Assembly: GCF_029589495.1 (NCBI RefSeq)
Contig: NZ_JAAIVF010000002.1
Coordinates: 1 to 64,000, forward strand
Length of the DNA stretch: 64,000 nucleotides
Source of the DNA: Speluncibacter jeojiensis
GTDB taxonomy: Bacteria > Actinomycetota > Actinomycetes > Mycobacteriales > Mycobacteriaceae
Direction: 5' to 3'
Shown here piece by piece: positions 32,269 to 47,621 of this stretch. Both the position numbers and the translations under genes were made by a program. The notes below the pieces were generated by a model, which worked only from the letters and a program-made list of their open reading frames with translations, was not told where the DNA came from and did not search any database. Position 1 is the stretch's first letter. Each line of letters opens with the position of its first letter.

Positions 32269-33218
32269 CGAGCTCCCACCACCAGTTCGCCACCCATCTC
32301 AGTATCCAGTCTGCGCAGGATGAGTCCCTCCCGCAGCGCCCAAGGGCAGATCTGCACCTGGTCGATCGACAAGGCACGCATGCTCGCCTCCGCCACCAGC
32401 GCCCCCGCGACCAGCTGCGGAGACCTGTCGGCGCTGACGCCTTCCAGTTCTGCGCGATCTGCTGCAGTCATCCTAGAAATAAATGCGATGAGTTGGCGTA
32501 AACCGCTCACTGTGAGTGTCCGCTGCACCCGAGGACCCGCGCTCGACGGCGCCGCACCGGTCAATCGGGCGAGCGTTCGGAAGGTTTTCGACGTCGCCAC
32601 GGTCAGTTCGGGCCGGCCCGCGGCCTTGAGTTCCTTCGCCGGGCCGGACAGCTCGGCCTCGAGCCAGTCACGCAGGACCTCGACCTTCCGCTTGCTCGGC
32701 GGATCGGCGCGCAGCCAATCGCGGGTCAACCTGCCGGCGCCCAGCTGCAGCGAGAACGCGGCCTCCGGGTCCTCGTCGATCCCACTGCACAGCTCGAGCG
32801 ATCCGCCGCCGATGTCGAGGTTGACGATCCGCCCTGCGCTCCAGCCGTACCAGCGGCGCACCGCGAGGAAGGTCAGCCGCGCCTCGTCGACCCCCGAGAG
32901 CACCTCGAGTTCCACCCCGGTGTCGCGGCGGACCTTCTCCAGGACCTCGTCGGAGTTGGTCGAATCGCGGACCGCCGAGGTCGCGAAGGCCATCAGCTCA
33001 CCGCAACCGGAGGTCCGCGCGATCTCGGCGAACTCCGCGACGATCGCCACCAAGCGCTCCGCGCAACGGTCGCTGAGCCGGCCGTCGTCCGACAGCTGCT
33101 CCGACAGGCGCAGCGCCACCTTGGTCGAGCTCATCGGCGTGGGATGCGCACCCCGGTGGGCATCTACGACGAGCAAATGGACCGTGTTGCTACCGACATC
33201 GAGCACACCTAGACGCAC
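32265..33218 (-). CDS. ppx1: Exopolyphosphatase / (p)ppGpp-related phosphatase Ppx1
   Basis: The 317-aa Ppx/GppA-family protein has the phosphate loops [17 protein letters not shown] and [11 protein letters not shown], and lines up closely with Rv0496. Ppx enzymes release phosphate from polyphosphate. The GTG at 33218 is preceded by TAAGTT and 7 nt, so the message is probably leaderless; upstream frame to 33401 overlaps the divergent gene and is rejected. The stop overlaps the next gene. Confidence 0.92.
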
Positions 33219-33225
33219 AGCTATC

Positions 33226-33244
33226 AACTTAGACGGTCTACCGT
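33226..33244. promoter_or_regulatory. Compact divergent leaderless promoters of ppx1 and neighbour
   Basis: Only 34 bp separate the two GTG starts. On the minus strand TAAGTT (33226-33231) ends 7 nt before ppx1; on the plus strand TACCGT (33239-33244) ends 8 nt before the other gene. A 14-bp dyad GACGGTCTACCGTC (33232-33245) lies between and partly under the boxes. Confidence 0.6.
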
Positions 33245-33252
33245 CGACAACT

Positions 33253-34059
33253 GTGACGCGTGGCGTGAAGAAACCGACCGGCGAGGTCGATCCGGATTTT
33301 CCTCGGGAGTGGATCGAGTTCGTCGACCCCGCCGACCCCGAGCGGCTGATCCAGGCGGACCTGACCTGGCTGCTGTCGCGGTGGACCTGCGTCTTCGGCA
33401 CCCCGGCGTGTCAGGGCACCGTCGCCGGCCGCCCCGACGACGGTTGCTGCTCCCACGGCGCCTTCCTCAGCGACGAGGACGACCGTGACCGCCTGGATGC
33501 CGCGGTCGCCGATCTGACCGACGAGGACTGGCAGTTTCGCACCAAGGGACTGGGCAAGAAAGGTTACGTCGAGGAGGACGAACTCGAGGACGAGCCTGCC
33601 CTGCGCACCCGGCGCCACCAGGGCGCCTGCATCTTCCTGAACCGACCCGGATTCCCGGGCGGCCCCGGCTGCGCGCTGCATCGCATGGCGCTGCGCACCG
33701 ACCGGCATCCGCTCGAGGTCAAGCCCGACGTCTGCTGGCAGCTGCCGGTGCGCCGCACCGAGGAGTGGGAGGAGCGCCCCGACGGCACTCAGATCCTGCG
33801 TACGGTCATCGGCGAGTACGACCGGCGCGGCTGGGGACCCGGCGGCGCCGACCTGCACTGGTACTGCACCGGCGACCCGGCCGCGCATGTCGGGTCGGAG
33901 GCGGTGTGGCAGTCCTACGGTCCCGAGCTGACCGCACTGATCGGCGACGAGGCGTACGCCGAGCTTGCGGTGCTGTGCAAGCGGCGCGCGGGGCTGGGGC
34001 TGATCGCGGTGCATCCCGCGACTGCCGAGGCGCAGCGCCGCGCCGGCGACGGGGAGTGA
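33253..34059 (+). CDS. Cysteine-rich conserved protein, Rv0495c type
   Basis: The 268-aa protein is conserved beside ppx1 in mycobacteria but has no assigned function. It has C46-x6-C53-x11-C65-C66, then Cys126, Cys140, Cys161 and Cys205, a pattern that could hold a metal, loosely like YkgJ-type CxxCxxCC proteins. GTG at 33253 sits 8 nt after a -10 box and has no ribosome site. It stands alone, divergent from ppx1. Confidence 0.83.
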
Positions 34060-45176: not shown

Positions 45177-46301
45177 TCAGAACGCGCAGCCGACCAGCAC
45201 GGGTTCCGGTTCCAGCGTCACCCCGAACGCCTCCCGTACCCCGGCCCGCACGTCCCGGGCCAGGTCGAGCAGATCCGTGGTGGCCGCCGCACCCCGGTTG
45301 GTCAGCGCGAGGGTGTGCTTGGTCGACAGCCGCGCGGGAGCGGACGTGCCCGGATGGCCGCGGTGGAAGCCGGCCCGCTCGATCAGCCACCCCGCGGACA
45401 ACTTGACCGCGTCACTGCCGGCGACCGGGTACCGCGGGACCGCGACATCGGCGCCCACCCGCGTCTCGATCGCGGACAGCACGGCGGGCAGCCGGTCCGC
45501 CGGCACGATCGGGTTGGTGAAGAACGACCCCGCGCTCCAGGTGTCGTGGTCGGCGGGATCGAGCACCATCCCCTTGCCCGCGCGCAGCTTGAGCACGCAC
45601 TCGCGCACGTGCGCGACCGGCGCGCGCTCGCCCTCGGCGGCACCCAGCGCGGACGCCAGCTCGCGATAGCGCAGCGGCGCACTCAGACCGTCGGCGGTCA
45701 CGTCCAGCTCGACCTCGAGTACCAGCGCGTCGTCCGAATGCTTGAGGACGCTGGTGCGGTACCCGAGGGACAGTTCGCCCGGCTGAGCCCAGTGGACGTT
45801 CCCGGTGCGCCGGTCCAGCAGCCGCACGCGCCGCAGCACCGAACCGACCTCGACGCCGTAGGCACCGACGTTCTGCACCGGGGTCGCCCCCGCGGATCCG
45901 GGGATGCCGGACAGACACTCCAGCCCGCCGAGCCCGGCGGACACGGTCGCCGCGACCACCTCGTCCCACACCGCCCCGGCCTCGGCCCGCACAACAGTCC
46001 CGTCAGTGGTCCCGTCGGCGGGACCGCCGATCTGCACCGCCGGGTTCGCCACCCGCACCACGACGCCGTCAAATCCCGTGTCGGCGATCACCAGGTTGGA
46101 GCCGCCCGCCAGGACCAGCAGCGGGACGCCGGCAGCGTCCAGTTCCCGCACGACCGACACCAACGAGTCGGTGTAGGTGCAGGTCACCATTGCCGTGGCG
46201 GGACCGCCCAGACGCAAGGTGGTGTACGGCGCGAGGGGGACGTCGCGTTCGAACCGGGCACCGGCTCGCGTCGCGATCTGCGCTGGGTCGATGGTGGACA
46301 C
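45177..46301 (-). CDS. murB: UDP-N-acetylenolpyruvoylglucosamine reductase
   Basis: The 374-aa flavoenzyme makes UDP-MurNAc. It has the FAD stretch [45 protein letters not shown] and the proton-donor Ser in [13 protein letters not shown] start with no ribosome site and TACCGT 8 nt upstream; the promoter is shared with the divergent DUF2505 gene. Equivalent to Rv0482. Confidence 0.95.
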
Positions 46302-46309
46302 AACCTGTC

Positions 46310-46319
46310 ACGGTAACCT
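46310..46319. promoter_or_regulatory. Bidirectional leaderless promoter (murB / DUF2505 gene)
   Basis: The two start codons are 25 bp apart. On the plus strand TAACCT (46314-46319) ends 7 nt before the ATG at 46327; on the minus strand TACCGT (46310-46315) ends 8 nt before the murB GTG at 46301. The two -10 boxes overlap in the small palindrome GGTAACC. Confidence 0.65.
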
Positions 46320-46326
46320 GCCTGTC

Positions 46327-46836
46327 ATGGCCCGCCGCATCGACTACTCCGCCCGACTGCCCTTCTCGGCAGATCGGGTGTACGCCGCGCTGTCCGACCG
46401 CGACTACTGGGACGGCCTGATGGCCGAGATGCGTGAGCTGACCCCCACTTCGCACGTCGAGTCCCTCACCGTCGAGGACAGCGGCATCGCCGTGCACCTG
46501 ACCCAGGTGATCCCGCGCGAGACCCTGCCCACCATCGCCCAGACCGTGATGAAGAAGGACCTGGTCATCACCCGTAAGGCCAGCTACGGCCCGTTCGACG
46601 GTGACACCGCGAAGGGCGAGTTCTCCGCCTCCATCCCGGCCGGTCCGGGCGCGCTCGACGGCACGATCGAGCTGTTCAACACCCCGACCGGGTCGACGCT
46701 GCGGACCTCGCCCGAGGCCAAGGTGTTCATCCCGTTCGTCGGCAGCAAGCTCGAGCAGCTCATGCTGGTCAACCTCGTCGACCTGTTCCGTGCCGAGGCC
46801 GAGTTCACCGAGAAGTGGCTCAGCGACCGGGCGTGA
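46327..46836 (+). CDS. DUF2505 family protein (Rv0481c type)
   Basis: The 169-aa protein looks like a START/SRPBCC-fold lipid- or hydrophobe-binding protein (starts RRIDYSARLPFSADRVYAALSDRDYWDGL). The exact ligand is unknown. It begins directly after a -10 box and has no ribosome site. Its stop overlaps the methyltransferase start (GTGA). Confidence 0.87.
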   Translation: MARRIDYSARLPFSADRVYAALSDRDYWDGLMAEMRELTPTSHVESLTVEDSGIAVHLTQVIPRETLPTIAQTVMKKDLVITRKASYGPFDGDTAKGEFSASIPAGPGALDGTIELFNTPTGSTLRTSPEAKVFIPFVGSKLEQLMLVNLVDLFRAEAEFTEKWLSDRA

Positions 46837-47621
46837 GCCGGTCACACACGACCCCGCGCCCCGTCGGCGTCATCACCCGCGGCACCACCGGCATCAACCG
46901 TTTGCGCCGCAGCGACCGCTGGCTCGTGCACGACCCCTCGGTTCACCGTGCACTCACCCGCGCGGCCGAGCCGCTGGTGGTCGACCTCGGCTACGGCGCC
47001 AGCCCGGTCACGACGATCGAGCTGGCCCGACGGCTGCGCACGGTCCGCCCGGATCTGCGGATGGTCGGGCTGGAGATCGATCCCGCCCGCGTGGTCCCCG
47101 GCCGCGAGGGCGTGGTGTTCGCGCGCGGCGGGTTCGAGATGGCCGGGCTGCGCCCGGTACTGGTGCGGGCGTTCAACGTGCTGCGGCAATACCCGGAGGA
47201 GGCGGTGCCCGAGGCCTGGGCGTCGCTGCGGCGGAGGCTCGCGCCGGGCGGGTTGATCATCGAGGGAACCTGCGACGAGTTGGGTCGCCGCTGCGTCTGG
47301 GTGCTGCTCGACGCCGACGGCCCCAGGTCGCTGACGCTGGCGTGGGATCCGCACACCGTCGAGCGCCCCTCCGATCTGGCCGAACGGCTCCCCAAGGCGC
47401 TGATCCACCGCAACGTGCCCGGCGAGCGGATCCACCACCTGCTCGAACTCGCGGACCGGTGCTGGGCCACGGCCGCGCCGCACGCCCCGTTCGGTCCGCG
47501 GGCCCGGTGGCGGGTGGCGTGCCAACTGCTCCGCGACGCGGGGATCGAGGTCGCACGCCCGCGCCGACGGCTCCGGGACTGCGTGCTGACGGTGCCGTGG
47601 AGCTGCGTCCAGCCGTCCTGA
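46833..47621 (+). CDS. Class I SAM-dependent methyltransferase-like protein
   Basis: The 262-aa protein has a Rossmann-like glycine loop (VVDLGYGASPVTTIELARRL), the acidic VGLEIDPARV and LAPGGLIIEGTCDELGRR. It is likely a methyltransferase, though the loop is not canonical. GTG at 46833 overlaps the DUF2505 stop; ATG at 46815 is an alternative. Substrate unknown; translational coupling suggests joint work with the DUF2505 protein. Confidence 0.8.
   Translation: MSRSHTTPRPVGVITRGTTGINRLRRSDRWLVHDPSVHRALTRAAEPLVVDLGYGASPVTTIELARRLRTVRPDLRMVGLEIDPARVVPGREGVVFARGGFEMAGLRPVLVRAFNVLRQYPEEAVPEAWASLRRRLAPGGLIIEGTCDELGRRCVWVLLDADGPRSLTLAWDPHTVERPSDLAERLPKALIHRNVPGERIHHLLELADRCWATAAPHAPFGPRARWRVACQLLRDAGIEVARPRRRLRDCVLTVPWSCVQPS

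Follow-up and report, generated by a model that had tools for sequence, protein, structure and literature searches.

Genes flanking a 25-bp divergent gap

Can a gap of 25 bp between two divergent genes hold working promoters for both? The question is raised by a locus of Speluncibacter jeojiensis, within the 64,000-nucleotide stretch of DNA analysed here (the window), where murB and a DUF2505 gene are read away from one another and both are predicted to be leaderless. The minus-strand gene encodes UDP-N-acetylmuramate dehydrogenase (Pfam FAD_binding_4 and MurB_C; NF010478, 533 bits). An in-frame TGA stands two codons upstream of its GTG and the next in-frame start, a TTG at codon 29, lies within the conserved domain, leaving the GTG as the sole usable start. 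The plus-strand gene (PF10698, 164.5 bits) starts with ATG and overlaps a further called ORF by 4 bp, with which it is probably co-transcribed; this ORF, which a first-pass annotation had labelled a methyltransferase, has no match in Pfam, NCBIfam or PDB sequences. The features are:

45177–46301, minus strand: murB, GTG start, predicted leaderless
46310–46315, minus strand: murB −10 box TACCGT (read from 46315 to 46310), spacer of 8 nt to GTG
46311–46313, plus strand: CGG, SRN-type extended −10 of the plus promoter
46314–46315, both strands: TA core shared by the two boxes
46314–46319, plus strand: DUF2505 −10 box TAACCT, spacer of 7 nt to ATG
46316–46318, minus strand: GGT (minus-strand reading), SRN-type extended −10 of the minus promoter
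46327–46836, plus strand: DUF2505 gene, ATG start, predicted leaderless
46833–47621, plus strand: downstream ORF

The DUF2505 protein of the window is 61–64% identical to the second DUF2505 copies of relatives and 30–41% identical to their first copies, which suggests that the gene is an orthologue of the second copy, that the first is apparently missing here and that murB has come to adjoin the second. In most relatives of family code f1, apart from those of one large genus code (g2), one or two extra DUF2505 genes separate murB from the orthologue of the window gene. A literature search returned no paper naming Rv0482 and Rv0481c together, and the main texts of the mycobacterial transcriptome papers that were searched do not mention murB; a CRP-binding paper lists murB for one intragenic site only.

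Two −10 boxes nested on one TA

The intergenic sequence (46302–46326) reads AACCTGTCACGGTAACCTGCCTGTC, flanked by CAC (46299–46301) and the ATG that begins at 46327. Its sequence, coordinates, length, spacers of 7 and 8 nt and overlap at TA are all as the first-pass annotation described them. At 46314–46315 the −12T and −11A of the plus promoter pair with the −11A and −12T of the minus promoter, and the CGG ahead of the plus box doubles as the complement of the inner bases of the minus box. A common −12/−11 at standard spacing would, by geometric calculation, set the start sites 23 bp apart; the predicted separation here is 26 bp (23–27 bp across relatives) because the leading T lies 13 and 14 bases ahead of the start codons rather than 12, adding 1 + 2. 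Standard −35/−10 and terminator scans of the site gave no match, and no Rfam family matched. Two near-identical 10-mers (CCTGTCACGG at 46304–46313 and CCTGTCATGG at 46321–46330, 17 bp apart) stand on both sides of the core; no such pair was seen in the upstream regions inspected from relatives, and it is thus probably either chance or a remnant of local rearrangement.

How often such an arrangement arises by chance was gauged over 2.0 Mb of the S. jeojiensis genome (1,665 genes called by a codon-usage script, 236 divergent pairs), with four scrambled hexamers serving as mock boxes. TANNNT stands 6–8 nt ahead of a candidate start in 263 genes, against 34–83 for the scrambled hexamers; boxes of the leaderless type occur on both sides in 17/236 divergent pairs, against 0–2 for the mocks; and the TA is shared in 2/236, against none for any mock. 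The two-box arrangement at murB/DUF2505 exceeds chance. The other shared-TA pair (ankyrin-repeat/septum-formation-like, C12:628523/628550) serves as a negative control: its minus box is kept in 27 of 30 loci, with the paired plus box and start codon found only in S. jeojiensis, and sharing therefore does not persist just because one of the halves does. The window holds another back-to-back pair of leaderless type at 33218–33253, with starts 35 bp apart and boxes that are adjacent and separate: the minus GTG belongs to a Ppx/GppA-like phosphatase (named by eye) and the plus GTG to an uncharacterised protein.

Both halves are conserved among relatives

Relatives were drawn from two families of one order (codes f1 and f14), those with a genus label being mostly Rhodococcus, Nocardia, Gordonia and Williamsia, with one Actinophytocola (L096). 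Two contigs labelled Kitasatospora and Acidobacteriaceae (L042 and L075) carry Williamsia- and Gordonia-like loci, the DUF2505 of L042 being identical to that of a Williamsia, and are probably mislabelled or contaminant. In a first set of 90 loci with both genes, whose DUF2505 starts were extrapolated with no re-picking, the plus box (TANNNT, 6–8 nt from the start) was present in 90/90. An enlarged set of 99 loci with improved start detection has the plus box in 99/99 and a minus box on the common TA in 77; of these 77, 74 (74/99 overall) have an in-frame murB start at a distance of 5–9 nt. Such comparative evidence, the strongest there is for the site, gives strong support to the first-pass proposal of a two-way leaderless promoter whose −10 boxes overlap.

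The conserved core of the 74 shared loci is ACGGTA-NNN-T together with both spacings: ACGGTA is found in 70/74 and the TA is invariant. SRN extensions stand on both sides in 74/74 (CGG itself, ahead of the plus box, in 70), the inner bases of either box being the complement of the other's extension. Motifs resembling a Shine–Dalgarno sequence occur in 1/74 on each side. Alignment of the loci displayed no conserved −35 or operator columns, and outside the core nothing is prominent but the start codons and the spacer bases near them. Each side thus has the form of a leaderless SigA-type promoter, with TANNNT 6–8 nt upstream of a start codon (8 nt on the minus side of the window) and no Shine–Dalgarno motif, and the pair has that of a bidirectional promoter, with overlapping −10 elements whose key positions are reciprocally base-paired on a conserved TA. 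Across a sample of 20 genomes, most of them from other families of the order, a candidate leaderless-type box precedes murB in 18; the exceptions are L224, which has no such box, and L231, whose sole match is to a remote TTG.

The palindrome GGTAACC, in which the first-pass annotation had placed the overlap, is indeed there in the window, where GGT-A-ACC forms a 7-bp near-perfect dyad that might be taken for a regulator's operator rather than a promoter core. Among relatives it recurs in only 8/74, is replaced by GGTAGCC, GGTAGCG or GGTACTG, and so is not a conserved feature; what stays fixed as the core varies is the TANNNT constraint and the short spacing to both start codons. A dyad conserved independently of start-codon spacing was not found, and we reject the operator reading as scarcely credible.

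Paralogous promoters mostly lack the second half

Second and third DUF2505 copies, which lie downstream of a same-strand gene with no divergent neighbour, provide a control. Their promoters keep the plus box in 79/80, yet only 4/79 have the A needed to complete a minus box; most have C instead, giving CCGGTA. After dereplication the minus-completing base is present in 38/48 bidirectional loci versus 3/46 controls (Fisher p about 1e-13). These counts bear on whether just one half of the murB/DUF2505 site works, with the other box arising by chance from an AT step within a GC-rich extended −10. It is true that CGGTANNNT plus promoters readily yield TACCG on the opposite strand, and the CCGGTA of the paralogue promoters is of this kind. 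Against this, the A at 46310 that decides the matter persists where murB starts 5–9 nt away, whereas almost all paralogue promoters and 21 decoupled loci have lost it. Elsewhere in the order murB is preceded by a candidate leaderless-type box of its own, and the single-sided site at C12:628523/628550 has no conserved second half. We judge a single working half to be very improbable.

The retention of both halves across many relatives makes a real two-way promoter very likely, and we hold with high confidence that the site is a minimal bidirectional leaderless promoter for the housekeeping (SigA-type) RNA polymerase. Sequence and comparison together support its geometry and the conservation of both halves and both spacings. 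Two leaderless promoters would face outwards on common −12/−11 TA base pairs, the inner bases of either −10 box acting as the extended −10 (SRN) of the other. RNA polymerase would bind in one of two orientations and melt the same TA, starting either at the A of ATG (46327), to give a leaderless mRNA of DUF2505 (and the downstream ORF), or at the G of GTG (46301), to give a leaderless murB mRNA. Both directions presumably fire in S. jeojiensis, with start sites exactly at the start codons.

The two halves can part

Loci without the shared minus box reveal what happens when the genes separate: 21/22 have a distinct leaderless-type murB box elsewhere, and the half left unused is lost once a gene has taken up a separate box. 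In these decoupled loci the starts of the two boxes lie mostly 31–33 bp apart in the Rhodococcoides clade, 13 bp apart in Gordonia and 80 bp apart in L007. In two Nocardia (L045 and L047) ACGGTA remains at DUF2505 and a second promoter of this form stands 64–65 bp away for murB; the ACGGTAGCGT promoter occurs twice in both, and decoupling appears to have come about by duplication. The reverse may be seen in R. kyotonense, which has one AGGGTACCCT where sister species have two sites, both with GGTACC (loci L005, L067 and L074 against L064, L068 and L071). This has the look of two separate divergent promoters merged at their common GGTACC, and the tree nests R. kyotonense inside the split clade with moderate support; it suggests that deletion between palindromic cores can give rise to bidirectional promoters. 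As the relatives are phylogenetically linked, the tree holds only 3–4 independent changes of coupling, too few for a significant sign test.

The halves have come apart in at least three lineages, each gene keeping a box of its own, and the first-pass suggestion that transcription of the two units is mutually dependent gains no support and is rejected here. Its alternative, that they are mutually exclusive, is plausible for each binding event, since one TA pair serves both boxes; two polymerase complexes would be expected to exclude each other sterically, one occupying the site at a time. At all five bidirectional promoters tested in E. coli, however, basal firing fell short of the level at which the two directions compete, and competition arose only once one direction was strongly activated, which can repress the other (PMC12825309). 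At ordinary activity, both outputs of the murB/DUF2505 site are probably set largely independently, by the bases that are not shared.

The same E. coli work bears on whether polymerase competition at the shared TA forms a regulatory link, tying murB and DUF2505 to each other, inversely or at a fixed ratio, as a switch or noise buffer. Repression by a strongly activated opposite direction, and the finding that constrained transcription is less noisy (PMC12825309), lend this some appeal, as does the retention of sharing in two families when decoupling is mechanically easy. The lack of basal competition at those five promoters, the decoupled state of Gordonia, Rhodococcoides and some Nocardia, and the want of operator-like conserved columns beside the core all tell against it, and we regard such a link as possible and rather doubtful. 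That the shared TA was selected for coupling seems to us unlikely. Equally tentative is the more specific proposal that it is kept because it balances the making of peptidoglycan precursors (murB) against the DUF2505 unit, antagonistically or so as to limit noise, through the orientation that a single polymerase takes and without need of a dedicated regulator.

What the bidirectional promoter offers is a compact, deeply kept site that packs the core promoter bases of two genes into 25 bp. Its variants in nature, some coupled, others decoupled through the loss of a single base, duplicated or apparently re-fused, make selection for coupling, as against mere compaction, directly testable in a harmless Rhodococcus or in M. 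smegmatis, and the arrangement also offers annotators of GC-rich actinobacterial genomes a simple rule for divergent leaderless starts.

Comparison with known systems

The site belongs to a known kind, the bidirectional promoters with the '23-bp' geometry of E. coli, and both of its transcripts are predicted to be leaderless. The bidirectional promoters described by Warman, Grainger and colleagues in E. coli and Salmonella (PMC12825309, PMC10268837) likewise fire divergent starts from shared or overlapping −10 elements, with TSS separations in E. coli of 18, 10 and 23 bp; sharing of −12/−11 at murB/DUF2505 fits the last of these classes (PMC12825309). The Salmonella definition takes divergent start sites 7–25 bp apart (PMC10268837), a limit set on mapped TSSs at or just past which our 26 bp (23–27 bp in relatives), predicted from start codons, falls. 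Unlike those enterobacterial promoters, the murB/DUF2505 site has an SRN extended −10 on each side, is conserved across two families and is predicted to make two leaderless RNAs, so that the start codons fix the start sites at their separation of 23–27 bp. Each half resembles the mycobacterial SigA promoters for leaderless genes in the cited part of Cortes et al. 2013 (PMC3898074), which have TANNNT, an SRN/CGN extended −10, no −35 and a start codon at the start site; the murB/DUF2505 site differs from the promoters treated there in nesting two of them on one TA. A further parallel in that part of the paper is given by closely juxtaposed, back-to-back pairs of leaderless genes in M. tuberculosis, such as prpD/Rv1129c, for which, unlike murB/DUF2505, no shared −10 core is described there.
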